Below, piece by piece: positions 8,478 to 61,844 of a stretch of DNA of 64,000 nucleotides. The DNA comes from Echinometra lucunter (Eukaryota > Echinodermata > Echinoidea > Camarodonta > Echinometridae), in the NCBI GenBank assembly GCA_029962745.1, contig CM057157.1, forward strand, positions 1,846,835 to 1,910,834. Direction: 5' to 3'. Both the position numbers and the translations under genes were made by a program. Under the pieces are notes generated by a model. The model was not told the DNA's origin, made no database searches, and saw only the letters and a list, made by a program, of their open reading frames with translations. Within the stretch, counting starts at the first letter, position 1. Every line of letters begins with the position of its first letter.

Positions 8478-8816
8478 CTGATGCGAACTACTTAACCACC
8501 ATAAGCCGAGGGTTCACGAGCACAGAGAGTGGTAATCCATACTTTGAGTGTTACACGGAACCAGACAATTCTAATGCTGAGATCGCAACTGGGAGATATG
8601 CTTATACCAGGAATATTTTTGACTCTCCATCACCACAAAATCAGCCTCCACCTTCTCCAGAGATGATCATCAACGAGGACCCACCGTCGATTATCTACAG
8701 GACAGAGTTAAACACCATTCAACCAAACGGATACGGTTCCTATGGTGTCTTCTACTGCTCGTCGTCAGTAGATGGAATGAGAACCGTAGTGCCAACAATG
8801 TTTCTGAGATCTGACG
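8478..8816 (+). CDS. Receptor A exon: Ig1
   Basis: The acceptor is CTTTGCAG before 8478 and the donor GTAAGC after 8816; the exon is phase 1 at both ends. It encodes DANYLTTISRGF and continues to VFYCSSSVDG, with one cysteine near the start (YFECYTEP) and one near the end, the usual Ig pair. It resembles the first Ig module of Tie. Compared with copy B it has a six-residue insertion in a proline-rich loop (PQNQPP region). The upstream methionine at 8444 lies in the intron and is not the start. Confidence 0.85.
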
Positions 8817-11800: not shown

Positions 11801-14800
11801 ACAAGGTACCCACTTTGACGTCATTTTGACGTCAAAGTGGGTACCTAGTTGAAACTGGGTCACAGCTGAGGGGTCAGAAATATCCTGAAATCTTGCCACA
11901 TGTGGGGGTTTCCCTGGCAACAGGACTTTCAGAAAAACTTTGGACAAATGATTTTCTGCTAATAAAATCATGCTCTTTTAAATGAACTAACATTGTTTCA
12001 GCATTGGGTACCCCCTTTAATGTCCCATTTACAGCGTATTTTATACCTTCTGGAGGGAGGTTCACACAAACCGTAATAGCAGGAGAGGTTAATGTGTCTA
12101 TCCAGTTTGATCGAATCTACCCATCTCAAGAAAGGGACAACCGTTGGCGATTTAATGGCACGACAGACCCAGACAATTATTTCTTGAGGGCTCCAGACAT
12201 TGTGTATACCATCACTGATCCCATCTATACATCACAAGAGGGCATTTACGAAATTCACGTAAATAACCTAAGATACCAAGCAAGAGGTGGACTAATGAGG
12301 CTCATCGTCAAGGGTAGGTTTTGATAGTGTGCTCCATACTTCGTACATATTTCAGGTATCTCCATTTGCACCATGAGATGTATACCCCATTGTCACAGAA
12401 AAAGCGGAACGGCAGATTTTCAGTACTTTGCCTTCTTGATGTATATCTATACTTTTTTTTTACATCGTTGAGTAAAGCATCTTCTACCCCTACCCAAGAG
12501 AATGATACCAAGATCATTGAAAATGGTTAAGTAATTTTGATTCTATGCCCTTTTCTTAAAATACGGCCATTTTCAAATTTCGCATGTTTTTGGCGAGCGA
12601 TTAGAATTGGGAATGACCTTTCATTATTATGACGAGTACGATGTTGTGGGAAGCCCATTGATGCGTGTCAACATAAAAAGCATGCCGTATGAAAGGCCAT
12701 TCTCGACACAATTCTACTCTCATCCATGCTCATCGGTCGCAAAAGAGCATGCGAGTTTTGAAGACTGCTGTAGTTTAAGAAACGGGCATAGAATCAAAAT
12801 TACTTAACCAACTTCACTGATCTTAGTACCATTCTCCTTGTTCAAAGATGTTTTACCAATGATCTAAAAAAGTTATATTTTGTAGGCAAAGTATATTGAA
12901 TATTCACCGTTCCGCTTTTTCTGGGACACCCGGTATATATGAATTTATGATGAACATGAATGCAAAACAAATTGTTTGAACAAAGTAAAGATGAAATCTG
13001 CTTATTTTGGAGCCACTATAATACTCAACGCCACTCATGAAGAAAAAAAAAGCAACAACAAACAAGAGGCTAAGCAAAACCAAACCAAAATGATAACCCC
13101 CCCCCCCCCCAAAAAAAAAAATTGTAAAGAAAAACAGACACCACTACAACAGACAACGTAATTTCATTTTTTTCTCGCATCCACGAACTGTTTGGTTCTG
13201 CCTCTTCTATACATTCGACCCTCCAAATGATTTTTGTTTAAAATCAAATTATAGAAGATGAAATAAAATATTTATTGAGAATTTTACCCACAGGACTCTA
13301 TTAAAACCGGAAGAAAAAAAGTAGAATACTGAATGAGTACTCCCATTTTTGTTTAGAGTGTCCGAAGGGTCGATATAACTCTTCATCAGGGTGTCTTCAG
13401 ACCTGTTCTTGTTACAACGGTGGGATCTGTGATGATGAAACAGGACGATGTATCTGTGCTCCAGGTTTCAAGGGAGAAACATGCCAAGAAGGTATAGTCT
13501 AGAAGCATGTTCAAAATGGCATGTTTCTATATTACGATGAATCGTGAGCTTTCGAAAGAAGTTCATGTTCTTTGTATGATCATTATTTTAAATTCTGAGG
13601 CGTTATGCAGGTTCCTTTAAAACTGATTTCTCAGCCAAACGGCACGTGCCTATCGGCACAAAGCAATACACACAAATCAGCGGAGGGTTTACACTAGAGT
13701 CCCCAGTTTTCCGCGATACGGAAAACGCGATACGGAAAACGGAAAAAGTTCACGGAATTCGAGAAGAACACGGAATTCACGGAATTTCACGGAAAATGCG
13801 ATTTTCAGGTTAAAAAATCTGAATTACGAAGAAACTGAGTGAAAATCATGAAAATCAAAGCAAAATCCAATAAAGCAAAATCGTGCATCAGTGCAAAATC
13901 TGCCGATCAAACCTGTTCTCACTATTTAGCATGTGTTCGCCAAGCTTGATCTGCATATTACAGAGCGAATAAATTAAAGAAACTTGCGTTTTTCTAAGAT
14001 TTCCACTATTTATAATTGCTTTATCATATGTCTCGTACATGTCACCGAAGAAGACGGAATTTGAAGTTTAGAACATCGAAGAACACGGAATTTGCATTTT
14101 AGAAAACGGAAAACTGGGGACTCTAGTTTACACCATTGGCGTAAATCACCGGGGGGGGGGGGGTGGGGATGGGGAATGTATCCACACACTTTTTCGAGAG
14201 GGGGAATGGCGTGTACAAATCCCACTTGTTAAGGAAGAGATGATATTTTTATCAATCAGTAAAATTTGATAACCTGTCATAAACGACCATCATATTTTAG
14301 AATTTATATTTGAAAGTGCGATTAAAAACCAGAAAAAGGGTTTATATTGGCTCGCTCGCTTCGCTCGCTCGCTTGCATAATAAAAATAAAAATGTGTGTA
14401 AGAGGGTATGTGCGAATGGGTGAAAGTGTGTGTTTATTATGTAAGTGTGAGTTCGACTGAAAAAAAAATCGGCAAAAAAAGTCCATCATCCCCCCCCCCT
14501 ACTCCTCAAAGTGGATTTACGCCGGTAGTTTACACTGTTTAATCAAAATAAGATGGAACATTGCCTATTGCGGGGCTTGATTAGATGTATGGCAAGACTT
14601 CAGATACCCTGTGTATAGAGCCATTTCCTACTGTAACACTTTGATAATCCTATATGCCTATGGTAATTCTCTCTACTGAGAAATACAGTGATGCGCAGAG
14701 GAAATCGTGAGAAATGGGCTCTATAATGATTCCTTGGTCCTTATATTCATCTAGACATATCGTCATGTCAGAAAAATGGTTGTAGATGAATAATCATAAT

Positions 14801-17800
14801 CTTACGTGTATATACGTACACAGAGAAAGGTAAACGGGAGAGGAATATTCATGGGGAAAATAAAAAGCAGAATTAGAACAAAAATAATTCATACACGAAA
14901 CATTGTGCACAAGTTGAAACTGAGATAAGTAATAAAAAGCGATGCTTTTTAAAGAGTAGCATATCCTCGAAACGGGTGATGTTCGTTATTCCGAATTTTC
15001 GTTATTCCGAAGGTTTGTTATTCCGAAGGTTCGTTATTCCGAAACACGCAAACTGCGTATACCCAGATGTTCGTAAGTCCGAAAATGAAAAAGGGTTCGT
15101 TAATCAGAACATTTGTTGTGTTATTCCAAAGGTTCGTTAGCATGGTTAGTCCGAAGGTTCGTTAATCCAAAAATGAAATAAGGTTCGTTTTTCCGAAGGT
15201 TCGATAGTCCGAAAATGAAATAAGGTTCGTTTGTCCGAAAACCACTAACGAACTAATGAACCTTATTTCATTTTCGGATTAACGAACCTTCGGAATAACG
15301 AACCTTATTTCTTTTTTCGTATTAACGAACCTTCGGAATAACGAACCTTTTTTCATTTTCGGACTAACGAACCTTCGGACTAACGAACCTTCGGACTAAC
15401 GAACCTTATATCATTTTCGGACTAACGAACCATCGAAATAACGAACCTTCGGACTAACGAACCTTTTTTCATTTTCGGAATAACGAACCTTCGGAATAAC
15501 GAGCTGTAAACCCTGTTAACACAGCTTTGGAATTCCACCATGATACAGGTTGTGGTGGTAATCGATTCGGACGATCATGCGAATATCGATGTAATACATC
15601 CATTGATGACGAAACAGCATGTAGAGGAGTTCAGATGTGCCTACCAGATCCGTATGGGTGTTCCTGTGCACCAGGATATAAAGGCTTGAATTGCACCACG
15701 GGTAAAGTTAGAAAAAGCTGTACTGATTCATCTTCGAGTCTTACTTGAAATCTTTAGCTCGACGCTTGAGCTTATTTATCGTGCAATCTTGACCAGTGTT
15801 GAACTCATTCATAACGGAAAAAAAAGTGTTAACAGAATGTTTATAGGAATGATTGCTAAAGATCGTTTTTTCATTCATAAATCATTACCACGATTAATTC
15901 TGTAGCATAATGCAGTCAAACGTATTCAATTTCTACAAATCTTATAGTATTTAATTTTGAATGTTGATTATTTGTTGTTTGTTCGAAACACTTGTTTGAG
16001 TAAAAATAATTTCCCAGTGAAATTACACATTTGATAGATGGAGGCATGGACTTAAAACTCATAATACCTAATGTAATTTGGTATTATAATTTCTACAAAT
16101 CTTATAGTATTTAAATTTGATTGTTGATTGTTTTTGGATTGTTAGAAACACTTGTTTGAGTAAAAAGTAATCTTCTAGTGAAATTAAACATTTTGTAGAT
16201 CGAGGCATGGAATTAAAACTAAGAATACTCGATGAATTGGTATCATTATTATTATTGGTTCAATCCCTATGTTTCTTTCTTTTATATCTTTTGTGGCGAT
16301 AGAGTGTGACGGAGGTGAGTTTGGTGCTAGTTGTACTGAGACATGTCACTGTGTGTCAGGAGAGTGTGATCGGTTTACTGGAGTCTGTACAGGAAGCTCT
16401 ACTCAATGTGAACCAGGATGGACAGGGAATAGCTGTCAAGGTCAGTTAGCATTAGAGACACCATTGTTGACATTGAAAGGTGCACAAATCTTTGTGGGAA
16501 AATATAAAAAATGGCCTTTTGACTTGTTTCAGGGCAAAAAAAAGCATTGAGTGTTAAAAAGAAAAGGGAAGAAGAAAAGGGGGAGGAGGAGGAGAAGGAG
16601 GAGGAGGAGGAGAAGAAGAAGAAGAAGAAGAAGAAGAAGAAGAAGAAGAAGAAAATGAAAAGAAAGAAGAAGGAGAAGAATAATTCAGCAGCAGTCTGGG
16701 ACTGATTACCCCGGAGATTTTCGATGTGACCTGAGCGTGTTTCATAAAGCTATTCGTAAAGTTACGAATGACTTTAAGAACGAATTGAATATGGTAAGCC
16801 GAATGGCATTCTCATACTGCTTTCACACCAAGGTACGGTCGCTGCGAGCGGTCGCTGCGACCGATGAAATCATAATGTGAAAGCATTTCATCGGTCGCTG
16901 AGTACGGTCGGTGAGGTACTTCAGCGACCGATCGCGACCGATGCAAGCTAGATGTGAAAGCACATCGTACTCAGCGACCGATCGAAATGCAATGACCCCC
17001 ATACATGCCTACGCACTATCTCTACTTCCGCTTCCGGCTAGGTCAGCTATACAGCGACCGATCGCTCTGGGCCTGACCAAATTTTGACGGAGGTGTGAAA
17101 GCACGTCCGATCGGTCGCTGGGTACGGTCGCAGCGATCGGTCGCAGCGACCGTACCTTGATGTGAAAGCAGTGTAAGTCATTATGAACAGCATCAGTCAA
17201 AGGTCAAATATGCAGACGTAGATTAGCGTTACTGTTGTTTACACTCATTTTTATGGTGAAGTATATTTTTTGCCACAATTTAATTGATATTATGGGAAAT
17301 GTCACACTTTGTTAAAACATCAGAAAATCTTGGGGCATCCCATTTGGCAATTCACATTCAAGTCGTTCATAAAATCTTTCGTAACCTTAAGAACAGGTTT
17401 ATGAAACACGCTCCTGTTAACACAACCTATATCAACCGTCTGTCAGATCGCAACTCGACCGACCCCCAAGGCAAAATATTTAGCGACCAGAGGGGAAATC
17501 CCCCTAAACTCCCCATGGTCAGTCCGCCAGTGGGTGTACTTCGCATTTTTTTCTAAGTCTGCTTGATGGGTCAATTCAGGGAAAATGCCAAATAACAAAT
17601 TTCGTTTTATATAATATCAAAACGGTTCTTGCTTTTGCAGGTAATCTTATTCTTGATGTTAATTTTTCCTTATCCCGTGTGTGATATTGGTTTTTACAGA
17701 CATGTATACCAGATATGATTATTTAGGTCTGGGACCATAGGCGCTGGAAGCGGGGGAGGGGGGCAGGGGGGCAACTGCCCCCTCCCCAATCATTCGAGAA

Positions 17801-19146
17801 GGGGGGGGGGGGGCAAAATCGAATTTTTGCCCCCCAAGGGCTCCCTCGGAAGGATCATATACGACTATGTAAAAATGAGCATATTGCCATGATTAGTGCT
17901 CTAAAATGCAAACTTTCAGCATTAAAAAATGAAAATTTTCTTACTCGGTCGCTACGTATAGTAATGACAAGCAACGGGGCAGATGCTTGCTTCATTGGGG
18001 GGGATTATTCCCCCCCCCCCCCCTCAACCTCCTCAGTATCCTCATGTATTGGCATAACGGCCCCCGTATTTTTTCATATTTGGGCAATGCCGGAATAAGA
18101 AATTTCTGTACATCTTCACAACCCAAACTGTAAAAATTCTGCGCGCGGACAAAGTTGTGAAACTGAATAGTTGATTTTTGGGCAAAGGGTGTCGGCCCCA
18201 TCGCCAAAATCTACCAGTATGCCATTCATAACCCTCCCATTGCCATGCCAGGTCTCCCGAGTCTCTCACGCCACCCTAACATACTAAAAGCGGTGAACAA
18301 ATAATCATTTCAGTACTATTGATGAGAAAAGATGGGAAACAGTTTTTGATAATATCATCTTCTTAATTCAAAAAATTCTAAACTTGTCCTTTTATATATA
18401 AAGAAATATGTATAAAAAAGGGGGGGGGGGGGGAAGGATAAATGTGCTTGTTCGACTGCCGTCTCATTTCCCCCTATTCATGATTCATCTTCAAGTATTA
18501 CAAGTGAAAGGTGACTCTCTCGTTGCATATAATTAATATCATTTGGGGGCTGAATCCATTTTTGAAGTATCATTTTATATGATGTCCTAATTTCAGTGGT
18601 TTTCATTTCTCTAGTTATCACACTCATTGTGATTATATTGAAGATTTGTAATTCCGAAAATGGTTTAATACACGAAAAAGAAAAGGTTAAAAGAAAAAGT
18701 TATAGGATTCCAAATTCCAATAATTCCGATAATGTGATAGCGCCCCCTCCGCCTCCATTATAATGTATTACTGTCATTATTTTACAGAATGTGTAGCCGG
18801 ACGGTACGGCCAAAATTGTGCAGGTATGTGACTGAATATGAATACTCTCGATTCGAAGCAATTTTGTTAATGAAAATCAATTTATTGCGTAAGAAATGAA
18901 GACACGTTATTTTAGCTATAACACTGTCTTTTTAAATCCATTATACGCAATAATGCTGTTTCAAGTTCCAAGTTAAACATTTATTTCCAGTTATTCCAAA
19001 TCAAATGATAAACAAAATAATAAGGCAGCCATATGACATGCATGTATTTTAAAACAAAATATGACAAAAATAAATGTATATTTATGTCATCGTGGTTACA
19101 TAAATAATTTGAAGACACACCTCTAAAAGCAAACCCTTGGACATGA

Positions 19147-19201
<55 letters not shown>

Positions 19202-24605: not shown

Positions 24606-24637
<32 letters not shown>

Positions 24638-32298: not shown

Positions 32299-32545
32299 TT
32301 AGACATGCTCCATCGTTTCCAGAATATTCTTCCTACCTCGTGGTCTATTTACAATATTGACATATTCCCTTGTATCACTCTGTTGTACCGATGTCAGTTC
32401 AAGTTCGTCATACACAGTACAAGTACTATCGTTGTTCATTGATTCGTAAATATCGTCACCTGTTTTAGGCGTTTCTGGGCATTTCTCCTCATAAGAGTTC
32501 TTCTCATTAACTACTTTTCCTGGCAGTCTGTCAGGAGATTTTCGC
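32299..32545 (-). CDS. Mini-receptor C last exon: tyrosine-rich tail
   Basis: The acceptor is TATCACAG (minus strand) and the first G completes CG|G. It encodes RKSPDRLPGKVVNEKNSYEE, then TGDDIYESMNNDSTCTVYDE, LELTSVQQSDTREYVNIVN, RPRGRK and a stop. YESM fits a PI3K-type YxxM, and YVNI a Grb2-type YxN. YESM to YDEL (8 residues between) and YDEL to YVNI (12 between) have ITAM-like spacing. The upstream methionine of the longer open frame lies in the intron. Confidence 0.75.
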
Positions 32546-32985: not shown

Positions 32986-33093
32986 CGTCTGAACATTAAG
33001 ATGACGATTACAATGATAGAGAATAGAGCAATGACTGATGGGATGATACCAATGAGCAGAAGAGCGTTAGAAGAGCTTATCTTGTCACATCAT
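32986..33093 (-). CDS. Mini-receptor C exon: transmembrane
   Basis: On the minus strand the acceptor is TTATTCCAG and the donor CG|GTAAGA. The helix reads SSNALLLIGIIPSVIALFSI then IVIVILMFR, leaving in phase 2 like the TM exons of A and B. In the helix frame a TGA lies right after the acceptor, so the exon cannot be entered in that frame without a one-base correction. Splicing from the Ig exon in phase 1 gives NDVTR and a stop. Confidence 0.65.
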
Positions 33094-45696: not shown

Positions 45697-45728
<32 letters not shown>

Positions 45729-48700: not shown

Positions 48701-51700
48701 CTGTACGCTGTTAGGCTCTTTCCCCATACATGGCAGGCGTTCCCATTTCCACAATCTTTGCTATCAATAGCGAGGGAATATATATCTACAATTATTCTTT
48801 GGTGCTCGGTATAGCTCTTTTGAGGAATGTAGAGCAGTTACTTGACATGGAAAAAGGGATACTTAACACAGGGGTAAATGGCATTACTAGAAAGGAAAAG
48901 GGGCACTTTTCAAAAAAACAAAACAAAAGGGGCCCTTATCAGAGGCGGAAAAGACAGTCACCGATAAGAGAATTGCACTCACTTAAAAAGAAAAGGGGCG
49001 CTTACTAGAGTTTAAAGGGGCATGCATCAGATATGACAAAGAGTACCTACATGCATGACATGACTTGGAAAGGGGCACTTATCAGAAAACAGAAATGCCA
49101 CTTTAATACCAGCGACACTGAAAGGGCTTTTATATCGCACAGTATTAGAAACAGAAATTGCGCGTACTACAAAGGAAAGAGGGTACTACTTATCAGAACT
49201 AAAAGGAGTCATGTACGAGATTTAGAAGGGAAGAGCACCGCTAAACGGGAAATTTGCACTTATTAGGAATAAATAAGGGGCACTTGTCCATGTAAAAAAA
49301 AAAAAGAATGGGGGGGGGCAGGGAACAAGTGCAAACCCTGGGTCCGAAGCAAGGACTTTCATCGACATGTAATAGACCAGACGCAGAGAGGTGCACAGCT
49401 GTAAATGTTCTTTATCATTTACCTCTCAATCTTTGCAGCTGATGCGAACTACTTAACCACCATAAGCCGAGGGTTCACGAGCACAGAGAGTGGTAATCCA
49501 TACTTTGAGTGTTACACGGAACCAGACAATTCTAATGCTGAGATCGCCACTGGGAGATATGCTGATACCAGGAATGTTGTTGACAGTCCTCCACCTTCTC
49601 CAGAGATGATCATCAGTGAGGACCCATCGTCGAAAATCTACAGGACAGAGTTAAACACCATTCAACCAAACGGATACGGTTCCTATGGTGTCTTCTACTG
49701 CTTGTCGTCAGTAAATGGAACGAGAACCGTAGTGCCAACAATATTTTTGAGATCTGACGGTAAGTGTAAATTATTTCTCTAAAAAACTGTTGATTAAAAA
49801 TGATTGGCTTAGTTACTATATGAACCCACGAATTGAGGCTAATAACAACAACAACAAAATGAATAAAATACATGTAAATTAAAAAATCCCCATATGATTT
49901 ACATACAATTTGTTGTAACCAACAGTTGGTCGGTTCACATAGTCCCCATTCCTATGATTTTTAACCAACTTTTTAGAGTGTAACTTCGACTGCCTGGTCA
50001 TGGTCCATTGCTAGCTCAAGCTCTCGATCTCGATAAAAAACCTTAAAGATTTGACATGCCCTGCAGAAGAAATGAGAAGAAGCAATTTTCCTACGAAGAA
50101 AGACACTTCACGGCATCTGTCAAGCCCGGCTGTCAAGTAAGGGGAATTTAAAGCAAAACTATGAAAACTGTCACCTCATTTTTTCAACGCTGACTTTCCT
50201 CCTCACTCTATTCTCTCTCTTGTTTGTTTATTCCACTATGTTGTACACCTTAACTGGTCATCCGATAAAAGGCGGGGTGAGAGGGGTGGGCTCTGAGCTC
50301 TGGGCTATATACCGATAGTGTTTTTTTTTCTTTTTCTTTGTAAAATATTCGTAAATCAGATAATCTCGCTGATCAGCTGACGGTATCACCTTGGTATCAC
50401 CTTGTATTGACATGAATGGCTGCCAGTATAGAAATCTCTTCAATTTATCACATTGGCCAAGTCAGAAAACACAGAACAAACGAACAACGATTAACATGTT
50501 TATCATCCCGTAAATGATTTGGACGACTAGACAAGATTTTAAGCCCTTTATTCACAGTTGATTTAGATGGGAACATCAAACATGTAACTAGCTCTGTTAA
50601 AACTAATCTAATTATAAGATCAAGACTGAATTTCAATCCGGTCTCGATATTCTCCCAATAACCTGTCGCGATGTTTTCGGAATCTACCATCTCAATGTTC
50701 TCTTTACAGCGTATTTTATACCTTCTGGAGGGAGATTCACACAAACCGTGATAGCAGGAGAGGTTAATGTGTCTGTCCAGTTCGATCGGATCTACCCATC
50801 TCAAGAAAGGGACAACCTTTGGCGATTTAATGGCACGGCAGACTGGGCGAATTATTTCTTGAGGACTCCAGAAATTGTGTATACCATCACTGATCCCATC
50901 CATACATCACAAGAGGGCATTTACGAAATTCACGTAGATACCATAAGATCCCAAGCAAGAGGTGGACTAATGAGGCTCATAGTCAGGGGTAGGTTTCGAT
51001 AGTATGCTTCATACTTTGTACATTATTTCAGATATGACATGTATGTTCAGTATATATATATAAACAGAATAAAAAAAGGAACTCCCCCTAATTCAAAATA
51101 GCATAACTTTTTAACGAAAAAGTTTTGAGCAAAATAATTTGGCAGGAATGTTCCTACAATAATTGACTACCTTTTGAGATCGATCCGTCAAGTCATGCAT
51201 GACTGAGCAAACACTAAAAGGCAAAAATGTTACCTTTTCAAAAGTCACAGAAACAAGCGAAATGACAAGCATAAATAAATGGTAAAGAACTTAGGGAAAG
51301 GAATAAATAAAATATCAGAACTAATATACTAAAAATAAGATTAAAAATTCAACGTTTTGAACTATTACCTGCTGGAGTTGTGAGCTGTGGCTTAGTATTT
51401 CCTGCTTGTGTGTGGGATCACGTGATGTGGTACGTCACACAAGCAAAAGTCACTGAACCATCGTGTGAATGCGGCGCCACCATATATTTATATATTGCCA
51501 AAGCTGTGAAATATATTATTTGATCACAAATACATGTATCCCAAAGCATTAGCTCGGATTCGGCTGAGGGGTGCGGCTGCTCATAGTTCAAAACTCATCT
51601 GCCACCAACAAAGGAATTAATAAGTGAAAGGGTGAAGATTTGTCAGTCTGTCGGTTAAACGAATTTGGAGTCACCGAAACCACTTGCCTGTCTCCGTGGT

Positions 51701-51913: not shown

Positions 51914-51963
<50 letters not shown>

Positions 51964-54900
51964 TATGGAATTTTGATGAACATGACTGAAAAATGTTTTT
52001 TAAAAAGTTGACATGAAACCCTGATTATATGGGGCCACTTTTCAATGCCAACCTATAAAACATGATAAAGAAAAAATCCGGATAACCATGATGAAAAAAA
52101 AAACAAACACACAACAAAGGCAAAATGATATAAAAACGAAACTATGAACCCACCGAGAAAACACAGGATTACACATTCACAAATCATTTCTCATTGTCCC
52201 GTTTTGCGTATTCAACCCCCCCCCCCTTTCCCCAACAATTTTCTTTTCATCTCCCTTTGGAAGATACCATAGAAGAGTCATTTCCAAGTTCACCCGCAGG
52301 GTTCTTTTGATATTGGAAACAAAATACTGGAGTATAAAGTGAGTACCAGTCCTTTCCTTGTCTCTATAGAGTGCCCGATGGGTCGATATAACTCTACATC
52401 AGGGTGTCTTCAGACCTGTTCTTGTTACAACGGTGGGATCTGTGATGATGAAACAGGACGATGTATCTGTGCTCCAGGTTTCAAGGGAGAAACATGCCAA
52501 GAAGGTATAGTATAGAAGCACGTAAGATGCTTGATTTGTATGGCAACACTTCTGATACCCTGTATCGAGCCATGTAACACTTTGATAATCCCGTATGCCA
52601 ATGGTAATTCTCTCTAATGAGAAATACAGTATGGCACTGGGAATTCGTGAGAAAGAGGCTCTATAATGGTTTTCTACTTCTTATCATCTAGGCATATCGT
52701 GATGTCAAAAAAAATGATTGTAGATGAATAATCATAATCTTATGTGTATATATACACAAAGAGAAAGGTAAAATGAAAAAGGTGAATGAAAATTCATGGG
52801 GGAAAAAAAAGCAGAATTAGAACAAAAATTATTCATCCGCGAAACAATGTGCACAAGTTGAAATTAAGGGATGAGTACTAAAAAGCGATGCCTTTTCAAG
52901 AATAATTGTGTATAGCATATCCTCTAAACACAGCTTTGAAATTCCACCATGATACAGGTTGTGGTGGTAATCGATTCGGACGATCATGCGAATATCGATG
53001 TAATACATCCATTGATGATGAAACAGCATGTAGAGGAGTTCAGATGTGCCTACCAGATCCATATGGGTGTTCCTGTGCACCAGGATATAAAGACTTGAAT
53101 TGCACCACGGGTAAGGTTAGAAAAGCTGTACTTATGCATCTTCGAGTCTTACTTGACATTTTTAGCTCGACGTTTGAGCTTATATCGTGCAGTCTTGACC
53201 AGTGTTGAACTCATTCATTACTGAGATAAGTGTTAACATAATGTTTATAGGAATGATTGCTATAGATCGTTTTTTCATTAATAAATCATTACCCACGATT
53301 AATGTAGTAGTATAATACAATCTAACATATTCAATTTCCACAAATCTTATAGTATTTAATTTTGAATGGTGATTATATTTTGTTTTTTCGAAACACTTGT
53401 TTGAGTAAAAAAAAATAATTTCCATTTATTAGCTCGAGGCATGGAATTAAGGAATTAAAACTAAGAATACTCAGTGAATTGATATTATAGTTTTGTTTTA
53501 ATCCCTACGTATGCGTTTCTTTCTTTAATCTCTTCTTTGGCGATAGAGTGTGACGGAGGTGAGTTTGGTGCCAGTTGTACTGAGACATGCCACTGTGTGT
53601 CAGGAGAGTGTGATCGGTTTACTGGAGTCTGTGCAGGAAGCTCTACTGAATGTGAACCAGGATGGACAGGGAATAGCTGTCAAGGTCAGTGAACATGAGA
53701 GACACCATTGCGGAGTAAAAAATCAATGTGGTTGAAAGGTGCACAAATCATTGTTGGAAAATATGAAAAGGCCTTTTGACTTTTTTCAGGGCAAAAGAGC
53801 TTTGAGTGTTTAAAACAAAAGGGAAGAAGAGGAGGAGGAGGAGAAGGAGGAGGAGAAGGAGGAGGAGGAGGAGAAGAAGAAGAAGAAGAAGAAAAAAAAA
53901 AAGGGACAAAGAAGAAGAAGAAGAAAAATTCAGCAGCAGACTGGGACTGAATCAAATTAAATTAAATTACCCCGGATAATTTCGATATGACCTGGGGGTG
54001 TTTCATAAAACTGTTCGCAAAGTTAAGAACACTGATCTCACTGGTTTGTAGGTCGTACGCCTGTAAATATTTCCCCATAGGCCCCTGTGTTAAAAGTGGA
54101 ATTTGATAAATTCATGAAAAAAAAGTGTTTATAATGACACCATTGAAACTTTTGTCTGTAAGAGTTCATACATTATTCTTTAATTGCTGAAAATATGAAG
54201 GGGGGTTTTTTCAGCATTTTTTTGCGGTAGAGGGGCTGGATCTCAGACTAACAAAAACTTAGTCAAAGCTCCAGTAGTTGTAAGGCTTTTTGCCATACTA
54301 ATAAAGTCCCCTTAGAATCCACCTGGGACTAACTGCTGCTCTCTCATGGGACTGATCTAAACCAGTAACTATCCCTCTCTATGCACATAATGAAACACAG
54401 TGTTCAACCATGTATCTCTGATTTTATATGAATATTTTTTCAACTATGATGTCATCTTTGGGGTTGGAGGAATCTCTGAAAATGACCGGAGCTATTTACA
54501 GGCGTGCGGCCACGAATGACTTTACGAACGACTTGACTATGGCAAGCCAAATGGGATTTTCAATCATTATAAATTCTATCAGCTTAAGGTCAATAATATG
54601 CAGACGTAGATTAATGTTACTGTTTTTTACACCCTTTTTTTTTATTGTGAAGTATATTTTTTGGCCACAGTTCGACTGAAATTATGGGAAATGCAGTGAC
54701 ACTTTGTTAAAACATCCGGAAAACTTTGGGCATCCCATTTGGCAATTCATGTTCAAGCCATTCGTAAAGTCATTCGTAACTTTAGGAACAGCTTTATGAA
54801 ACACCCTCCTGTAAACACAACCTATATCAGGTATATCAACCGTCCGTCAGACCGGCCCTACAGGCAAAATATTTAGCGACCTGAGGGGCATCAACCCCCC

Positions 54901-56287
54901 CCCCCCCAATCCCCATGGTCAGTCCGCCAGTGGGTGTACTTCATTTGCATTTTTCTAAATATGCTTGATGGGTCAATTTAGGGAAAATGCCATGCAACAA
55001 ATTATATATAAATAATAAACGTTATATATAAATATTTAAGCTGTACGTACTTTCGCAGGTAATCCCCTGTGTGATATTGGGTTTTTACAGAACTGTATAT
55101 CAGATATGATTGTTTAGGCCTGGGATCGATCTTTAACTTCACCACCCGAAAGACATGACTCAGACGCGAACCTGGGTCCGATCAGAGTCAGTTTGTTGGA
55201 AAATACAAAGAGCTGACCGTTGACGTCATCGCTGGACCCATTGTTAAAGTTACCTTTAAGGTTATGATCTAAAAGATGACAGTACGAATTTCCAAGTGAT
55301 TTTCAGCTATGATCGGTAAAGTTTCGATCAGTTTAGATTCTCGTCAACTGCATAATATTATAGATTGTTGATGGAGAATTGCGTTATCACACCCGTCAAC
55401 GACTGCCATCTCATTTCTCCCTTAATACTTAAAATGAATCTTGAAGATTCATCTTAAGTATTACAAGTGAAAGGTGACTTTCGTTGAATATAACTAGTAT
55501 CACATGGCCTAAATCCATTTTTGAAGTGTCATTTTATATAAGGTCATCATTTCAACGGTTTTCTTTTTTGTCTGGTTATCACACGTATTGTAATTATACT
55601 GAAGGTTTGTAATTCCGAAAATGAGCCAGGGTTTCATATACAAAAAAGAAAAGGTTAAAAGAAAAAGTTAACGGATTCCTAATTCCGATCATTCCGATAA
55701 TGTGATAGCGCCCCCTTGTCTCCGTCTCTATTATGTGTATTAACTGTCATTATTTTACAGAATGTGTCGCCGGACGGTACGGTCAAAATTGTGCAGGTAT
55801 GTGACTGAATATGAATACTCTCGATTCGAAGCAAATTTGCATGTTTTCTAAATATGCTTGATGGGTCAATTTAGGGAAAATGCCATGCAACAAATTATAT
55901 ATAAATAATAAACGTTATATATAAATATTTAAGCTGTACGTACTTTCGCAGGTAATCCAATGATTTTTTATTTTTCAAATTTGATAATAAAAATCATTTT
56001 ATTGCGTAAAAAATGAAGACATGTTATTTTAGCTATAACACTGTCTTTTAAATCCATTATAATGGATTTCAAGACAGTGTATATATACACATTAATATTG
56101 TTTCAAGTTTCAAGTGTAAACATATTTATTTCCAGTATTCAAAATCAAATGATAAACAAGATAATAAAGAAGATAACAAAGCAGCAATATGATGTTCATG
56201 TACTTTTAAACAAAATAAGACAAAACTATACATTCACCGTGGTTAAATGAATAATTGGAGGACACACCTCTAAAAGCAAACCCTTGG

Positions 56288-56359
<72 letters not shown>

Positions 56360-57190
56360 AATATATATATATATATATATATATACGCGTATATCATGTA
56401 TATCAAATGTCAAAGAAAGAAAGAAACAAAAGCAACAAAAAAGATAGGCACTCATAACACTGCTTTTGTCTCTCTCTCACACACGCCCGCCCGCACATGC
56501 GCACACGCACGCACACATACATGAATAGAACAAAAAGAAAACAAACCAAGAAATGGAAAGATGAGTTCCCAAGGAGGGTGGGGGAGTGTATGAATAAAGT
56601 TATTTGTAGGATGAATAAGCCTACTACGTAAGGCATCTAACAATCTTATCTAGCTGAAGCACTTCAAATCATTATTCATAAACAGACTGACCCTCCTGAA
56701 CTCCTGAACCTATTGTCTTTTGATGTCAAGTACTGTATACTCTCCTTCGTCTTAGGTGCATTTCAAGTTGAAAATACACCAAGAATGAAGGCCAACCGGG
56801 TATCCATTTCTCCTGTCGAAGAGATGGTGGAAAGCTTTTGTCGTGTATATATATATATAGTGAAAATTAGTCTGCGTGGCATCTAGAAAATACAAGAATC
56901 AGAGTTGGTAGTAGAATGCCATAAAAGTAAAATCATAGATTTTAAAAGAAAACGGAGCATAGCTCTCAAAAATGAAAGGCGAAGTCACACTCTTCGTCAG
57001 TGCCCACGGTGTGACAAAAAGATGTAAATCAAAATCCATTTCTGAAACAGACGAATATATATATATATATGTCAAGATAAAAATTTATTCGATTAAGTCG
57101 AAATAATGCATAAACAATTCCGTAAGAGTAGCAAATATTCTCGCTTTTCTCTCGTACGGATCCAGTAGAAAATTACTTATTTTTTCTAAT

Positions 57191-57251
<61 letters not shown>

Positions 57252-60200
57252 ATCTAACTCAATGACAGTATCTTTCTTCAATTCTAATTCAAGTTTTACC
57301 AAGACTGTCAAGGTCACCTATCATTCAAGAGACTACTCCAACTACTATAACACTGTCTTGGGACCGATGGATGGCCGGGGTAGATATAGGTGATCCTCCA
57401 CTCATTGGATACAATGTATACTACATTGGAGCTGTCCTCGATTCGTCGTCATGGACCCGCCTTGAGCGAGGAAACGTCCTGGATGTTACTGAAGTGATTG
57501 GAGGATTGTCTCCCGATACTGACTATGTGTTAGGTGTTTCTGTAACCAGGGAAGGAGAAGGAGTGGAAGGACCTCTGAAAAACATTACGGCTAGTACTCC
57601 TTGTTTGCGTAAGTACATGCATGTCGGAGAACTTTCTCCCGGGCTACCATGTCGGGATGAAATACCTTAAGTCGGTCAACATCAAGCGAAGTAAAAGGTT
57701 GGATAGGCGAAGATTTCGAAGTTAGAATATTTATGGAAGTAGAACGCTTCACGGTCCTTTCCAGGACCGCACTCATCTTCAAGAAAGAATACTTAGTGAA
57801 CCGTGAAGCCTTCTTCTTCCATACGTTCTACCACCATCGAAACCTTCAAAGGATATTTAGAATATTTACTATTTAATTATTGAAATCTATATTGGGAAAA
57901 TCATCACTTCTCGCAGAGAAAAGACATTATTTTTGTAATATGTGACTCCTCTCGTAGGGCTGTTCAAGGTAGATTTTTAAATCGATAACAACGTGATATC
58001 TGAACTATATACAGAAAATCTGATCTGATTTATCTTTATGATTTTCTACAAATCTTGCTCAAAATAATCAAAGGTATCATCAGTTCATTTTTCCTTTTGT
58101 TATAATTGTTGTTGTTTGTTTCTAAATGTAGCCCCTACAAGGGTACTTTCTCATGTGGCCGTCCATCAAGTGCCATCTCCTCAGCAGATACTTATTACGT
58201 GGCAGGTGAGATCAAGAGGACAGTCCCGGTGTTCCCCGAGCCCCCAACCTTCCCCATTTGCTCAAATACACAAAATGGTGACAAGGCAGTTTCTTCCAAG
58301 TTATGAAAATATCAACATGTAGCTCATTTTGCCAAGTTTACAACCTTTCCTTCTATTGCTTTTCAAGAGTTATTTTCTGCACAGTGGAAAAATTATCTTT
58401 AATTATATTTCATAGTCTATATCGGGTAGTTGTCTGCGGGTAATTTACTTATTTTGTAAGAAATAGTTGTCTGGGAAGCGATTTTTTGTCCCTGAACCTT
58501 TGGGGCTTCATACATGAATATCCATGACTTGCGTCTTCGGAATAAGAGTAAGCATGCGCGTAAACTTCGTTTATTTTATTGAGTGTGACTGTACTGTGTG
58601 GCTTGACTGAGACTGAGTGTCAGACGAAGACTGGATGAGAGGGTGCATGGGCACGCATGCTGTCTTTTCATTCGACTAGGTTTTATAGCTCTCCGAGACT
58701 GAGCTAAGTAAGACCGTGCTAAGTCCGAGGTACAATACAGTTAATTGGGTTTTATTGTTGGATCAAGGAAAAGCTAAAAGTAAAACAAACAAAACCCCCG
58801 AAGTTCCTCAAGCATCATGTAGCCTAACTGTAAACAGCGCTGTCGCGAAGCGACACGGCGTCTTGTCGACCGGAGCTGTGGCGAAGTCCACGCGCATGCG
58901 CAGTTTTATTCCCAAGCCGCAACTCATGAATAATCATATCATTTAGCCCCAAAGGTTCAGGAAGAAAAATTTCGCGTCCGGGAAGCGTTGTTTTTACGAA
59001 TAATTCCCCTACTGGAGTAATTGAACGAAAATAGTTAATAGTCTGAGAGGTTATTTTCCCTGCGGCGCCGTTAGACGATTTAATGCACACCGCCCAAAAT
59101 AAGTAAGTGAAATAAATAAGTACAAAAAAGGGGAAACGAGAAAGACCACAGAAAGGGTTCCGTTTCCGTGGTACGGCGGAGCTACAGTGAGGCACAGGAA
59201 GATAGGAGGGGGAGGGAGAAGGGGAAATGCTATGTAAGTGATGTCAAGATGTAGGTATGCTTTGCTCAAGATATCTTACCCTTTCCCCCTTTTCGCAGTC
59301 TATAGCGTCTGACAGTACTGGTGCAGGCTGTCGCGGTGGTTTCACTAATATCTCAGTCTACTACTCTTCAATGTCCGATGCGTCATCCAGAGGTTCGCTA
59401 CAACTTCCCGTTAACACTACTGGAAGTTACTACCTCACGTCATTGCAGCCTGGTACTCAGTACTCGATTTATATGACATTGTGGAACAAAGATGCAGAGG
59501 GCCCTAGAAGCGAACCGTCCATTGGGATGACTTCCCAGACGAGTAGGTTAAGTTTAAAGGTCAAACTAATGTATTAAGTTACTATTTGATAGTGAAATTT
59601 TAATTTCTCTTCATATATTGTGCCACCATTGAATTTATAAACAAAACTTCAAGACATGAATCATCATAACGTTTTCATAACTCGGAGAAAAACGCCGCCA
59701 AGTACAGGGCCAAGTATGTAAGTAAATAATGATGTTTGCTCTTTTTCCTAGGCATCTCATGTTTCATCGTGCCATGGGCCTTGTTCGGTATTACTTTTCT
59801 TGTTTGTGCCGTCGTCATTGTCGTTCTGATTTGCCAGTGGTAAGCCAGTATACACAGTAGATCGATTGACTTTTGGGTCAGATATGTTGGAATATGGGCA
59901 TTTGAAAGATAGGTTGGGTTATATGTCTACGGACTGTGTACATGTATTTATTCAAACCCCTCAAAAATTCTTTAATTCAAGTTTGAGGGATGACGTTTTT
60001 TTGTTACTGATCTATAAAAAAAAAATAAAAAAAGTTTAGCCTTCTTCACAATGATGTGCCATTTGCAGTGACTATGCCATTATAGAATACGCAGTACTCC
60101 TAGATATGGAGTAAAGTCAACAGTGAATTGTTGCAAAATGCGTGGTTTTTAACATCGAAGTCTCCAGTTGTTTTCAAGATGCAATGTTTTGAATGGAGCC

Positions 60201-61844
60201 AAGGTGACACACTATGTCTTGCCTGAACGTCAGAGGCTTATTGTTCTTTCTTTAAAAAGTGAAATTTGTTTGAATGATGTTAAAGTGGTCATCGATGAAC
60301 ATGATGAAGTCCAAAAGGCATGAATGCTATGCCCTTTTGTTTGGAAGATGAAAGTTGCAGTGTTTGTGTGAGTTAGAGCTGTAGCTTACTGAGTGGTTGT
60401 AAGATGTAGAGATACCACGAATATTGAAGGCTCTATCAATTGGACATTTCCAAGCAGGTGTACCCCAAAACGATGTTGCATCCTGATTTGGGGTGAGCGC
60501 AAGTACCATATCAAGACTGCGGGTGAAATTTCTTGAATCTGGGGAAGTTAAGACAGGCAGAGGAGTGGGCGTCCAAACGAGACAACGCCGTGAGAAGATC
60601 GGTATATTACACTGTTTGCATTAAGGAATCGAAGGCAATCCCCAAGAATCTCCCAGACGCACATGCAAGAAGAAGAAAAAAGAACAATGGCTTGGCTCAA
60701 ATTCATTCCAAACAGCTTTCATTCACGTGTGTAGATGAGAATGTGTATGGACTTTCATCCTCATCGCATTAACATCATTCAAATTAAATCCATCCTTCAT
60801 ACAAACAGGAATTCAATAGTGAAAACAACGAATTTTGCAGCATCTCATTTTTTAGCTTGCTTTATATATATTCAGAAGAAACGAGAGGTCTTTAATTGTA
60901 TAAGCATTACAGATGACACATCATTGTCAAGAGCAATAATCAAGCCTTTGAATAATACCAACGTATGAGAAACAAAACAAGAAACAAGAGATATATTTCC
61001 CTAAAACTTGAATTGCAGAACTTTTTTTGCAGGAGTTTACGTAAAGTTCAGAAAGACTAATTGACATTGTACGTAGGAGGATATTTCGTTCGTGTATAGA
61101 GAAAATAAATCCTATTTTAAAGTTTACAACAGAGCCTACACTCACATCTACATTCTAAAGGATAAAACTTTCTTACACACTTGTCTGTATCCTAGTCTGT
61201 TAGGCTGAGATAAAATTTTGTTAAATATGGAGACTAATCTTGTAACCAATTTCTTTACGTGCAATGCAAAATCTCTCTTATCTCTTTCCACGTTCTGGTA
61301 CTCACTGTGTCTATCACATCTTTACACACACTACCTACACGTTTCCATAAACACCCCTCAAATAACATCCCACACCCTCTCTTTCATTCCTTGCCTCTCG
61401 TATACCACCAACTCCATGGAAATTGATTTTTACTGTACGAGGTTAGACCTAATTATAATATAACTTTTATGAGCTTATTTTGCCCTTTTCCTGCACCCAC
61501 ATCCTCTTAAGCACCCACTCCGAAATAACATCCAACACCTCTCTCTGTTCTACTTTCAGTTCAATAGTCCATTAACTGTAACATGAAAAACATGTGAGAA
61601 TGAATTTTTTGATCAATTCTCTTAATGAGAGTACAGACGGCAATAACGAATCGGACTGATTTCGGTTTTACCACTGCAGACTTTTGAGTTTTTCTATATA
61701 TTCTTTTACAGCAAAAGACTGAAGGCAAATGCTCAGTCCTCCTCATCAAGAACCGATCCTAAAACAATCGACGACCAACCAGTATATGAGAACCTAGCCT
61801 TTGAATCTCCACCTGTAAACACCTATGAAAGCTTGAAACAGTAG
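40380..61844 (+). CDS. Receptor B: Tie-like ectodomain, TM, ITAM-like tail (multi-exon span)
   Basis: Exons: 40380-40431 (signal), 49439-49759, 50710-50988, 52370-52504, 52934-53110, 53547-53684, 55761-55796, [56756-56845 broken Ig3], 57294-57608, 58132-58205, 59299-59542, 59752-59839, 61712-61844. Without the broken Ig3 exon they give a continuous frame of 663 residues, because the exon is flanked by phase-1 introns. All other splice sites and frames match receptor A. The tail carries YENL and YESL. There is no kinase. It may be a functional Ig3-less receptor or an early pseudogene; retention of every other frame favours the first, weakly. Confidence 0.75.
40954..41025 (+). mobile_element. 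tRNA-derived SINE copy 1
   Basis: GTCGCCGTGGTC starts and CGGCGGAGAC ends a tRNA-like body with B box GTTCGATTCCC. The A box region is TGGTCTATAGTGG. Related bodies lie at 41355, 41640 (minus) and 51690. Confidence 0.65.
41355..41425 (+). mobile_element. tRNA-derived SINE copy 2
   Basis: GTCTCCGTGGTCTAGTGG, then CGGGTTCGGTTCC and GGCGTAGAC. Its left flank (41160-41350) matches the flank of the 51690 copy, so a longer composite unit of about 350 bp was dispersed. The 3' acceptor arm pairs imperfectly, which argues against a working tRNA. Confidence 0.65.
41640..41708 (-). mobile_element. tRNA-derived SINE copy 3
   Basis: The minus strand reads GCGGTCTAGTGTTTAAGGC, GGTTTCGATTCCAGGCGGAG. Opposite orientation to the other copies. 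Confidence 0.6.
41941..42010. repeat. AT microsatellite with CATA end
   Basis: A run of TA followed by CATACATACATA. Open frames across it are artefacts. Confidence 0.95.
42345..42735. repeat. Inverted repeat with about 140-bp arms
   Basis: 42345-42485 (CGCAAGGAAATAATGCC, GGAAAAGAGGGGAGG, GATTTCTGTGGGC) is complementary to 42600-42735 (GCCCACAGAAATCTGTC, CCTCCGCTCTTTTC, CCTTGCG). A spacer of about 115 bp separates the arms. It looks like a MITE adjoining the 12-mer array. Confidence 0.7.
42741..42975. repeat. 12-bp minisatellite TGCTCCGCCGACA
   Basis: About 17 units of the TTTGCTCCGCCGACA/TATGCTCCGCCGAC type, mostly in 15-bp steps including variants and 12-15 nt spacing. The minus strand reads as repeated MSAEQ, a translation artefact. 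Sited between the inverted repeat and a CTT tract. Confidence 0.85.
43081..43360. repeat. CTT/CTTC polypyrimidine tract
   Basis: Long TTC/CTT/CCT repeat. Ser/Phe and Arg/Lys frames on both strands come from it. Confidence 0.95.
43361..46788. other. Intron 1 of receptor B, no gene seen
   Basis: A LINE-like tail AATTGAACTGAATTGAAC lies near 44060-44090, with poly-A/poly-G runs at 44147-44200 and 44710-44750 and an AAT repeat at 45657-45755. No domain or RNA gene recognised. Confidence 0.5.
45657..45755. repeat. AAT microsatellite
   Basis: AATAATAATGAT-type repeat of about 100 bp. Poly-Ile frames on both strands are artefacts. Confidence 0.95.
47290..49290. repeat. Long foldback with short tandem-repeat arms, copy B
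   Basis: Left arm 47290-47780 carries TTCTGATAAGTGGCCC-like units; right arm 48890-49290 carries GGGGCACTTATCAGAA-like units. The arms enclose about 1.1 kb that includes the truncated MITE (47567-47683) and a TGCACC repeat (48230-48580). It ends about 150 bp before the Ig1 exon of receptor B. Copy A keeps both arms but with a shortened right arm. Confidence 0.6.
48230..48580. repeat. TGCACC-rich dispersed repeat, copy 3 (longest)
   Basis: Same start TACACACTAAGAAAAAGG as copy 1, but with extra TGCACCTT/AAGGTGCA units up to about 350 bp. Aligned copy A (8056-8178) is much shorter, so units were gained here or lost there after duplication. Confidence 0.6.
49439..49759 (+). CDS. Receptor B exon: Ig1
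   Basis: The acceptor is CTTTGCAG and the donor G|GTAAGT; 321 nt, phase 1. It encodes DANYLTTISRGFTSTESGNP and later GVFYCLSSVNG. Same cysteine pair as receptor A, minus the six-residue loop insertion. The apparent Met at 49405 lies in the intron. Confidence 0.85.
50710..50988 (+). CDS. Receptor B exon: Ig2 (cysteine-free)
   Basis: The acceptor is CTCTTTACAG and the donor G|GTAGGT; 279 nt. It encodes AYFIPSGGRFTQTVIAGEVN and ends GLMRLIVRG. N-to-C identical in length to receptor A. Here the acceptor follows a good pyrimidine tract, with no upstream alternative. Confidence 0.85.
51500..51850 (+). mobile_element. Composite SINE-bearing repeat (includes tRNA body 51690-51760)
   Basis: The tRNA-like body GTCTCCGTGGTCTAGTGG ... 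GTTCGATTCC ... GGGAGAC is preceded by about 190 bp matching 41160-41350 (GAATTAATAAGTGAA, GATTTGTCAGTCTGTC). The two ends of the body pair well (GTCTCC/GGGAGAC), the least damaged of the four copies. An anticodon-loop candidate reads GTTCATA (UCA), not a normal amino-acid anticodon. Present in the Ig2-EGF1 intron of B only. Confidence 0.65.
52370..52504 (+). CDS. Receptor B exon: EGF1
   Basis: The acceptor is TCTCTATAG and the donor GTATAG; 135 nt. It encodes ECPMGRYNSTSGCLQTCSC then the same YNGGICDDETGRC as receptor A. Confidence 0.9.
52934..53110 (+). CDS. Receptor B exon: EGF2
   Basis: The acceptor is TAAACACAG and the donor G|GTAAGG; 177 nt. It keeps CLPDPYGCSC but has APGYKDLNC where receptor A has APGYKGLNC. 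That glycine is well kept in EGF modules, so the fold may be mildly affected. Confidence 0.9.
53547..53684 (+). CDS. Receptor B exon: EGF3
   Basis: The acceptor is GGCGATAG and the donor GTCAGT; 138 nt. All cysteines are kept; T-to-A and Q-to-E changes relative to receptor A. Confidence 0.9.
53995..54806. mobile_element. MITE host with nested element (B)
   Basis: The outer ends GTTTCATAAAACTGTTCG and AACAGCTTTATGAAACACCC match the A copy at 16735-17411. Nested at 54051-54511 is an unrelated element with ends GGTCGTACGCCTGTAAATA and TATTTACAGGCGTGCGGCC (two mismatches). Each paralogue has therefore taken a different insertion into the same host element. Confidence 0.75.
55761..55796 (+). CDS. 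Receptor B exon: 12-codon extra EGF start
   Basis: TTTTACAG and GTATGTGA border 36 nt encoding ECVAGRYGQNCA, identical in protein to receptor A with two silent changes (GTA/GTC, GGC/GGT). This is good evidence that the tiny exon is kept by selection. Confidence 0.75.
56291..56390. repeat. AT and AAT microsatellite
   Basis: TA run, AATAATAAT, then a second TA run before ACGCG. Frames over it are artefacts. Confidence 0.95.
56756..56845 (+). pseudogene. Receptor B broken Ig3 exon
   Basis: The acceptor CGTCTTAG is kept and the first 90 nt match the Ig3 exon of receptor A, but one A is missing after AATACACC, which shifts the frame. The match stops at GGAAAGCTTTTGTCG, where TGTATATATATATATAG follows. 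The remaining roughly 210 nt, the second Ig cysteine and the donor site are gone. Copy B resumes homology at 57068 (GTCAAGATAAAAATT), so about 1.2 kb of A-like sequence was replaced by about 220 bp flanked by TA runs. Confidence 0.85.
57294..57608 (+). CDS. Receptor B exon: FN3-1
   Basis: The acceptor is AATTCAAG and the donor C|GTAAGT; 315 nt. It encodes LPRLSRSPIIQETTPTTITL and TREGEGVEGPLKNITAS. It could join directly to the 12-codon exon (G|TT gives Val) without frame loss. Confidence 0.9.
58132..58205 (+). CDS. Receptor B exon: FN3-2, first half
   Basis: The acceptor is AAATGTAG and the donor CAG|GTGAG; 74 nt, identical protein to receptor A (PPTRVLSHVAVHQVPSPQQI). Confidence 0.85.
59299..59542 (+). 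CDS. Receptor B exon: FN3-2, second half
   Basis: The acceptor is TTTTCGCAG and the donor A|GTAGGT; 244 nt. It encodes GFTNISVYYSSMSDASSRGS; three residues differ from receptor A. Confidence 0.9.
59752..59839 (+). CDS. Receptor B exon: transmembrane
   Basis: The acceptor is TTTTCCTAG and the donor TG|GTAAGC; 88 nt. Encodes SISCFIVPWALFGITFLVC; a single change (S to F) from receptor A. Confidence 0.9.
61712..61844 (+). CDS. Receptor B last exon: ITAM-like tail
   Basis: The acceptor is CTTTTACAG and the phase fits TG|C. It encodes KRLKANAQSSSSRTDPK, TIDDQPVYENLAF and ESPPVNTYESLKQ followed by TAG. YENL and YESL with nine residues between and acidic residues in front fit the loose ITAM pattern (YxxL/I, 6-12, YxxL/I). 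AATAAA follows at 61946, about 100 nt after the stop. In receptor A the first motif is YENP. Confidence 0.85.

Follow-up and report, generated by a model that had tools for sequence, protein, structure and literature searches.

Genes A and B, which lie in tandem in the 64-kb window (the whole stretch of DNA that was analysed), appear from their sequence to be paralogues of a sea-urchin receptor with a Tie-type ectodomain and no kinase. Tie receptors are known as blood-vessel kinases. A and B belong to the Tie ectodomain family but, lacking the kinase, do not count as Tie receptors in the ordinary sense. The window consists of intron-rich DNA of an animal (37% GC) and was treated as echinoid, because its nearest protein relatives are from sea urchins.

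Gene models and tandem duplication

The models of both genes were built by hand from acceptor and donor borders, intron phases and the conservation between the copies, and all internal borders in A and B were GT-AG and in phase (Table 1). The module order of gene A is Ig, an Ig without cysteines, three EGF repeats plus half an EGF, Ig, two FN3 domains, a transmembrane segment and a tail. All modules listed for A in the first-pass annotation were present with consistent intron phases, and the motifs CLPDPYGCSC, CDRF and REGEGGEG were found at the expected places. The transmembrane exon joins the tail exon in phase and gives a tail of 43-44 residues with its own stop; the annotated stop after about 43 cytoplasmic residues was thus recovered as the TAG that ends the A tail exon, and B ends in a homologous short tail. 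In-frame ATG codons at 8,444 in A and 49,405 in B lead into a hydrophobic leader. The start is uncertain, as the stretch ending at 8,477 in A also reads as a splice acceptor and a separate signal-peptide exon is possible, in which case the first exon in the table would run from 8478. No Pfam match up to E 10 was obtained for Ig1 of B or for any of the three Ig exons of A, so that Ig_Tie2_1 was not recognised on Ig1 of either gene; a weak match to this model (E 6e-6) was seen in a kinase form from Asterias.

Table 1. Positions of the three Tie-like loci and their exons in the window
Feature	Position	Strand	Remarks
Gene A	8,444-26,626	+	12 in-phase GT-AG exons, 766 aa
A, possible leader and Ig1	8444..8816	+	donor GTAAGC, phase 1; copy in B at 49405-49759
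A, Ig2 without cysteines	12002..12313	+	aligns with Tie2 chain
A, EGF1	13357..13491	+	
A, EGF2 with CLPDPYGCSC	15549..15701	+	
A, EGF3 with CDRF	16303..16440	+	
A, micro-exon, half EGF (ECVAGRYGQNCA)	18788..18823	+	conserved in B
A, Ig3	19626..19925	+	tblastn with L. pictus P0001 and S. purpuratus P0003
A, FN3-1 with REGEGGEG	21148..21462	+	Pfam fn3, E 7e-6
A, FN3-2 first part	22010..22083	+	
A, FN3-2 second part	23905..24148	+	fn3
A, transmembrane segment	24362..24449	+	ends in phase 2
A, short tail YENPAFESPPVNAYESIRH	26494..26626	+	stop TAG
Fragment C, third Tie-like locus	34,080-32,299	-	inverted, between A and B
C, Ig3	33790..34080	-	tblastn with P0004, E 2e-24
C, transmembrane exon	32986..33093	-	in-frame stop at 5' end
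C, open tail exon	32299..32545	-	second urchin tail type (IYESM...YDEL...EYVN); tblastn with P0004, E 3e-4
Gene B	49,405-61,844	+	11 exons, 649 aa
B, possible leader and Ig1	49405..49759	+	
B, Ig2	50710..50988	+	acceptor moved into exon
B, EGF1	52370..52504	+	
B, EGF2	52958..53110	+	
B, EGF3	53547..53684	+	
B, micro-exon, half EGF	55761..55796	+	
B, Ig3 exon remnant	56753..56844	+	truncated, 1-base deletion; Ig3 not encoded
B, FN3-1 (REGEGVEG)	57294..57608	+	
B, FN3-2 first part	58132..58205	+	
B, FN3-2 second part	59299..59542	+	
B, transmembrane segment	59752..59839	+	
B, short tail YENLAFESPPVNTYESLKQ (YxxL-x9-YxxL)	61712..61844	+	stop TAG

Gene B is a diverged copy. The second receptor that had been annotated stands as far as its homologous tail is concerned, but it lacks a usable Ig3 exon: of the 300 bp of this exon, no more than the first ~92 can be aligned with A, with a 1-base deletion, and the earlier reading of an Ig3 in gene B was rejected on these grounds. 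Because the neighbouring introns are in phase 1, skipping Ig3 keeps the frame open, and gene B would then read Ig-Ig-EGFs-FN3-FN3-TM-tail. In Ig2 the old acceptor was deleted and a new usable acceptor lies inside the exon, which leaves the domain 11 residues shorter, and the REGEGGEG claimed for this copy reads REGEGVEG. Having lost Ig3, gene B may be decaying.

Collinear blocks between A and B amount to about 12 kb in total and are scattered across a 26-kb part of A (5,311-31,761). The copies differ at 4.3% of the aligned exon positions (82/1902) and at 10.0% of the aligned non-exon positions (953/9492; Fisher p 1e-17), a count in which chaining left out a block at 15,512-16,055 (89.5% identical) that holds the EGF2 exon. 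Over 649 shared codons dN was 0.034 and dS 0.061, with a dN/dS of 0.56 (Fisher p 0.025). Judged from these alignments, A and B are a tandem duplication under moderate constraint and not chance open reading frames; for gene A, a chance frame or a pseudogene was rejected given its intact frames and splice borders and its constrained exons. Sea-urchin genomes are very heterozygous, gene B is without Ig3 and fragment C is broken, all of which would suit an assembly that placed two haplotypes of one gene next to each other, or genes decaying into pseudogenes. We regard this as very improbable in view of the lower divergence in exons than outside them, the many gap columns in the non-exon alignment, and the intact frames, splice borders and dN/dS noted above.

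The annotation of two tandem receptors holds for A and B but missed the third, inverted and broken fragment C between them. Fragment C is probably a relic, because an in-frame stop lies at the start of its transmembrane exon and no FN3 exon was found upstream of that exon.

Several repeats were also seen. A LINE-type retroelement at 992-5310 (+), whose ORF at 1906-4890 matches endonuclease and reverse transcriptase families, looks like an insertion in A only, because its flanks (792-991 and 5311-6458) adjoin each other in copy B. A fragment resembling the LINE ORF (23033-23881, minus strand; 32% over 130 aa) lies in the intron that splits FN3-2 of A, and most of it is covered by a stretch found only in A (22,646-23,653). 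Four copies of a dispersed repeat ('tgcaccctaaatgcaacactggcag' and similar) lie in or beside both genes, at 8051-8188, 19953-20131, 48219-48398 and 63320-63468.

Queries with the cytoplasmic portions of relatives (4 kinases and 6 phosphatases, then 7 and 6 more) found no exon for either enzyme in the 64-kb window, and the only matches were 15-34 residues long with E 0.033 or worse. The best of these, an 18-residue kinase match at 1640-1587 (E 0.033), lies upstream beside the retroelement ORF and was not credible. As a positive control, the ectodomains of five kinase receptors (from starfish, frog and amphioxus) were run in the same way and matched the EGF exons, in most cases at E 1e-3 to 1e-10; the kinase P0089 served both as an enzyme query and as a control. 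The missing kinase of the first-pass annotation is thus supported within the 64 kb. The short tail could in principle be one isoform of a kinase or phosphatase gene with enzyme exons beyond the window. Related urchin genes do carry phosphatases (P0164), and the search was confined to the window, so that it covered 37 kb downstream of A and only 2.1 kb downstream of B, up to the window edge. Such an isoform is nevertheless quite unlikely: the 37 kb 3' of the A tail held no credible kinase or phosphatase match while the controls were positive, the tail exon and its stop have been retained in both copies, and short, partial predicted proteins of two other urchins terminate in homologous tails.

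Identity of the ectodomain

When gene A was compared with solved structures, human Tie2 ectodomain chains came first (E 6e-43, then 6e-37 and 2e-35), against E 4e-5 for the SREC-type SCARF1. An echinoid-only profile, made from 11 sea-urchin relatives with no vertebrate row, also ranked Tie2 first (E 4e-51), with RPTP mu as the next family (5e-16). A second profile gave the same first rank; it contains two vertebrate Tie1 rows and hence is not independent. The Tie2 match extends to FN3-1, starting from Ig2 for gene A and from the end of Ig1 for the profile. Tie chains were thus ahead of other EGF/Ig/FN3 families by a wide margin, and the ectodomain is of the Tie type, as first annotated, and not of the MEGF/SREC type. 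A structure predicted for L. pictus P0004, from an alignment that held two vertebrate Tie1 rows, had a mean pLDDT of 73.9, a pTM of 0.48 and a disordered tail. Foldseek placed Tie2 4k0v first for this model (E 2e-27), with low TM-scores and with contactin and RPTP ectodomains close behind, so the predicted fold supports a Tie assignment but does not single Tie out.

Vertebrate Tie2 (TEK) and Tie1 and SpTie1/2 of S. purpuratus share with A the Ig1, the Cys-less Ig2, the EGF triplet with CLPDPYGCSC and CDRF, Ig3, the FN3 with a GEGGEG motif and the single transmembrane segment. Gene A fits the Tie order except that it has two FN3 domains where Tie2 has three (a number that also stands in structure entry titles), and B is without Ig3 as well. 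A and B differ from Tie2 and Tie1 in that no kinase was found in the window, in their short tyrosine tail, and in an Ig1 that is unmatched by any Pfam model. MEGF10, SREC and Draper also have EGF repeats, and Draper-type proteins have tyrosine motifs in the tail, as A and B do. An identity with this group was rejected: the match to A is much weaker, as the SCARF1 value indicates, and in the tree described below the rows of Draper, PEAR1 and MEGF type are separated from the remaining 146, on long branches and with a midpoint root.

A Tie-type EGF core with C..DPYGCSC was also seen in arachnid receptor phosphatases with an LCCL domain (P0136, P0138 and P0144-P0146, from ticks and spiders) and in the rotifer LCCL protein P0075; the motif is therefore older and wider than Tie receptors.

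Short tails and their tyrosine motifs

The ~43-residue tail has two tyrosine motifs, YENP/L and YES I/L. It ends in DDQPAYENPAFESPPVNAYESIRH in gene A and in DDQPVYENLAFESPPVNTYESLKQ in gene B, and its counterparts are STYENPVFDEPPVNQYESL in L. pictus P0002 and QPIYENPTFDGSPPVNAYESL in S. purpuratus P0003. The block YENPxF...PPVNxYES(L/I) is kept in A, P0002 and P0003, with L for P in B, and is conserved while the membrane-near half of the tail drifts. L. pictus P0001 and P0002 ('angiopoietin-1 receptor-like') and S. purpuratus P0003 (LOC105443864) have homologous ectodomain parts and the tail motif block in common with A and B, and differ from them in longer tails with extra tyrosines; these are partial models, P0001 being without a transmembrane segment and P0002 and P0003 without the N-terminal part. 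With the C-terminal region of A (residues 600-766) as a query, P0003 was the sole match, and the tail family is therefore known from few sequences. In the P0003 tail the YENPxF block is repeated twice, which suggests duplication of the tail exon. A second tail type is common to relic C, L. pictus P0004 and P0013, and reads Y-E, then Y(D/Q)(D/E)L, then Y(V/I)N.

Tyrosine motifs were counted in 24 short tails, namely 22 rows of the tree (A and B included) together with P0002 and P0003. YxN occurred 25 times compared to 7.4 in shuffles, and YxxPhi 30 times compared to 12.4, with 0/2000 shuffles reaching either count. When one tail was kept per cluster (14 tails), the counts were 14 compared to 3.6 for YxN (0/2000) and 16 compared to 7.0 for YxxPhi (1/2000); these statistics rest on related sequences. 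YxN is a Grb2-type and YxxP a Crk-type SH2 site, and YxxPhi is an endocytosis motif as well. Three of the 24 tails (starfish P0042, P0043 and P0129) are tyrosine-free, and such members could be decoys. The ITAM pattern YxxL/I-x(6-12)-YxxL/I, relaxed to L, I, V or M, was found in B, P0004, P0013 and P0032 among the 24 tails and not in A; a strict ITAM for both copies was rejected, as A has YENP.

On balance, the motifs favour A and B as docking receptors that would be phosphorylated in trans and whose tail tyrosines would be read by SH2 adaptors. Docking is preferred over a passive decoy because the tyrosine motifs of the tail are both conserved and over-represented, so that of the two roles first proposed, docking or decoy, the former is better supported. 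As passive decoys or ligand sinks, A and B would bind and remove a Tie-type ligand, and their tyrosine motifs would serve YxxPhi endocytosis only. This is unlikely: YES(L/I) does fit YxxPhi, no enzyme exon was found in the 64-kb window and some tails lack tyrosine altogether, but the enrichment of YxN matches that of YxxPhi in strength, and YENP, next to YES(L/I), is conserved as well.

Acting as docking receptors, A and B would bind a ligand or surface that is also bound by enzyme-bearing members of the family. Their tail tyrosines would be phosphorylated in trans by a separate kinase, which could be a Src-family member or the Tie kinase of urchins brought into the same cluster. Grb2-type SH2 adaptors (pYxN), and possibly Crk (pYxxP), could then dock on the phosphorylated tail, and a reader of two YxxL motifs might dock on the tail of gene B. 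Phosphatase-bearing siblings with similar ectodomains would reverse the phosphotyrosine mark. The family would thus consist of paired receptors, with one shared ectodomain and a kinase, phosphatase or docking output.

Kinase, phosphatase and short-tail relatives

Relatives were collected with gene A (76 matches) and with an Asterias Tie kinase, of which the ectodomain served as query (104 matches, scored among the best 7995 candidates, 8 of them repeats), which together gave 172 proteins. According to precomputed Pfam lists these include at least 56 kinases and at least 50 phosphatases. A HRDLAAxN-type motif was present in 51/56 kinases and HCSAGxGR(S/T) in 36/50 phosphatases. The 14 phosphatases without the motif include the cut models P0023 and P0041 and the Apostichopus protein P0018 (degenerate HCIDGASRS); therefore, not all proteins labelled as phosphatases need be active. 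When 14 proteins were checked by hmmscan, two Y_phosphatase stretches were found in P0164 (L. pictus), P0005 (Diadema) and P0109, P0116 and P0077 (starfish), one stretch in P0018 and P0020, the first third only in P0041 and P0023, and a tyrosine kinase in P0097, P0081 and P0021. A Tie-type core together with a C-type lectin domain was seen in P0011, P0051 and P0056, which are sea cucumber and S. purpuratus models (hmmscan for P0011 and P0051).

The kinase-labelled matches came from starfish, vertebrates and amphioxus, with no sea urchin among the matches listed by this word-limited search. Kinase-less relatives were annotated in other sea urchins, one sea cucumber and one feather star. These relatives agree with the kinase-less branch of the Tie family that had been proposed, but this description is too narrow, as kinase, phosphatase and short-tail forms occur on similar ectodomains. 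Phosphatases with a Tie-type core (P0164, Diadema P0005 and P0007, Apostichopus P0033, Holothuria P0038 and Patiria P0109) belong to the same ectodomain family as A and B and differ from them in the PTP domains of the cytoplasm, identified by hmmscan in P0005, P0164 and P0109 and by precomputed Pfam in P0007, P0033 and P0038; the P0005 and P0007 models have no clear transmembrane segment.

As in paired receptors, a single species may combine highly similar ectodomains with different outputs; this was found in the annotations of starfish, L. pictus, Holothuria and Antedon. Kinase and phosphatase ectodomains were identical at 698/865 positions (81%) for Patiria P0097 and P0109, at 722/899 for Patiria P0081 and P0116, and at 84% over the first 710 columns for Asterias P0053 and P0077. 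For short-tail and phosphatase forms, the numbers were 522/831 (63%) for L. pictus P0004 and P0164, 438/583 for Holothuria P0030 and P0020, 420/546 for Antedon P0035 and P0153, and 706/899 for Acanthaster P0123 (short by a hydrophobicity rule) and P0121. The best such pair in Diadema antillarum reached 55% in the EGF core. In 3/7 pairs (P0097/P0109, P0004/P0164 and P0053/P0077) the alignment reaches the membrane segment, and the membrane segment and cytoplasm then differ; in the remaining four the aligned part of one member or both ends sooner, short of the FN3-rich or linker region near the membrane. The gene models of the enzyme-bearing relatives were made automatically, and tandem arrays are prone to fused models. 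Records on equal-sized contigs (46,651,055 in Patiria and 21,203,961 in Asterias amurensis), a proxy only, suggest that the classes share chromosomes.

A tree of EGF cores was built from 174 sequences, namely the 172 proteins collected above plus the models of A and B, and 161 of these matched the core. After 12 were dropped for coverage below 75% or a score below 45 bits, 149 rows and 148 columns remained; 63/146 inner branches were left open and only starred groups were used. The rows were labelled as phosphatase (47) or kinase (42) from precomputed Pfam lists, and as short-tail (22) or without a transmembrane segment (38) by the hydrophobicity rule. A and B fell in a starred clade of 17 sea-urchin rows with 5 phosphatases, 4 short-tail rows (A and B among them), 8 rows whose models have no transmembrane segment and no kinase row. 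The kinase, phosphatase and short-tail labels require at least 26 changes on the tree, and the starred branches alone force at least 14 changes of the phosphatase label, at least 7 of the kinase label and at least 9 of the short-tail label. All four labels together needed 54 changes compared to 79.7 in shuffles (0/200 as low). Taken alone, the phosphatase label was hardly clustered (37 compared to 40.1; 60/500 as low), and the short-tail label needed 18 changes compared to 20.8 (17/500 as low). The weak clustering of phosphatases would be expected if outputs switched often or if models were mixed up, and fused or cut models may account for some of the changes.

In amphioxus (Branchiostoma), a kinase annotated as 'FGFR3' and a phosphatase annotated as 'PTPRA' (P0158/P0160) share 213/345 N-terminal residues (62%), with a Tie-type EGF core at about 210-345 in both. 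Kinase and phosphatase also group together, starred, in the tree (P0158, P0160 and P0162). This is a hint that the sharing of ectodomains between kinases and phosphatases predates echinoderms and may reach chordates.

Three papers describe SpTie1/2 of S. purpuratus as a receptor tyrosine kinase that is expressed in coelomocytes and the axial organ (PMC12113024, PMC6494969, PMC10396339), and a Tie-2-like kinase is reported for starfish coelomocytes in another (PMC13409769). In the open-licence literature, which is without most subscription journals, no paper was found that describes, for echinoderms, Tie receptors lacking a kinase, phosphatases with a Tie ectodomain or the set of kinase, phosphatase and docking forms. 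SpTie1/2 was reportedly the subject of Stevens et al. 2010, and Byrum et al. 2006 is said to be an inventory of sea-urchin phosphatases; some of the genes treated here may already be in one or the other.

We tentatively propose that echinoderms, and perhaps early deuterostomes, had a family with three outputs, in which receptors that share a ligand could write, erase and read one phosphotyrosine signal, A and B being the putative readers. The Tie-type ectodomain may in that case have been recombined repeatedly, at or before the membrane segment, with a kinase, a tandem phosphatase or a docking tail, a reading that we hold with equal reserve. SIRP and KIR families are paired activating and inhibitory immune receptors, with similar ectodomains, opposed cytoplasmic outputs and clustered genes, as in the echinoderm Tie-type set. 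In contrast to SIRP and KIR, the opposed outputs in echinoderms are enzymes themselves, a kinase and a phosphatase, in addition to docking tails, and an immune role is only putative; coelomocytes, in which the urchin Tie kinase is expressed, are immune cells. If transcripts confirm it, the kinase, phosphatase and docking set would be a more surprising result than the kinase-less A and B. If real, it would be a clean example of antagonism between enzymes that arose when a single receptor exchanged its cytoplasmic half. With such a set one could test how a Tie-type ligand acts through receptors that write phosphotyrosine, erase it or just present it, and how paired receptors evolve outside vertebrates.
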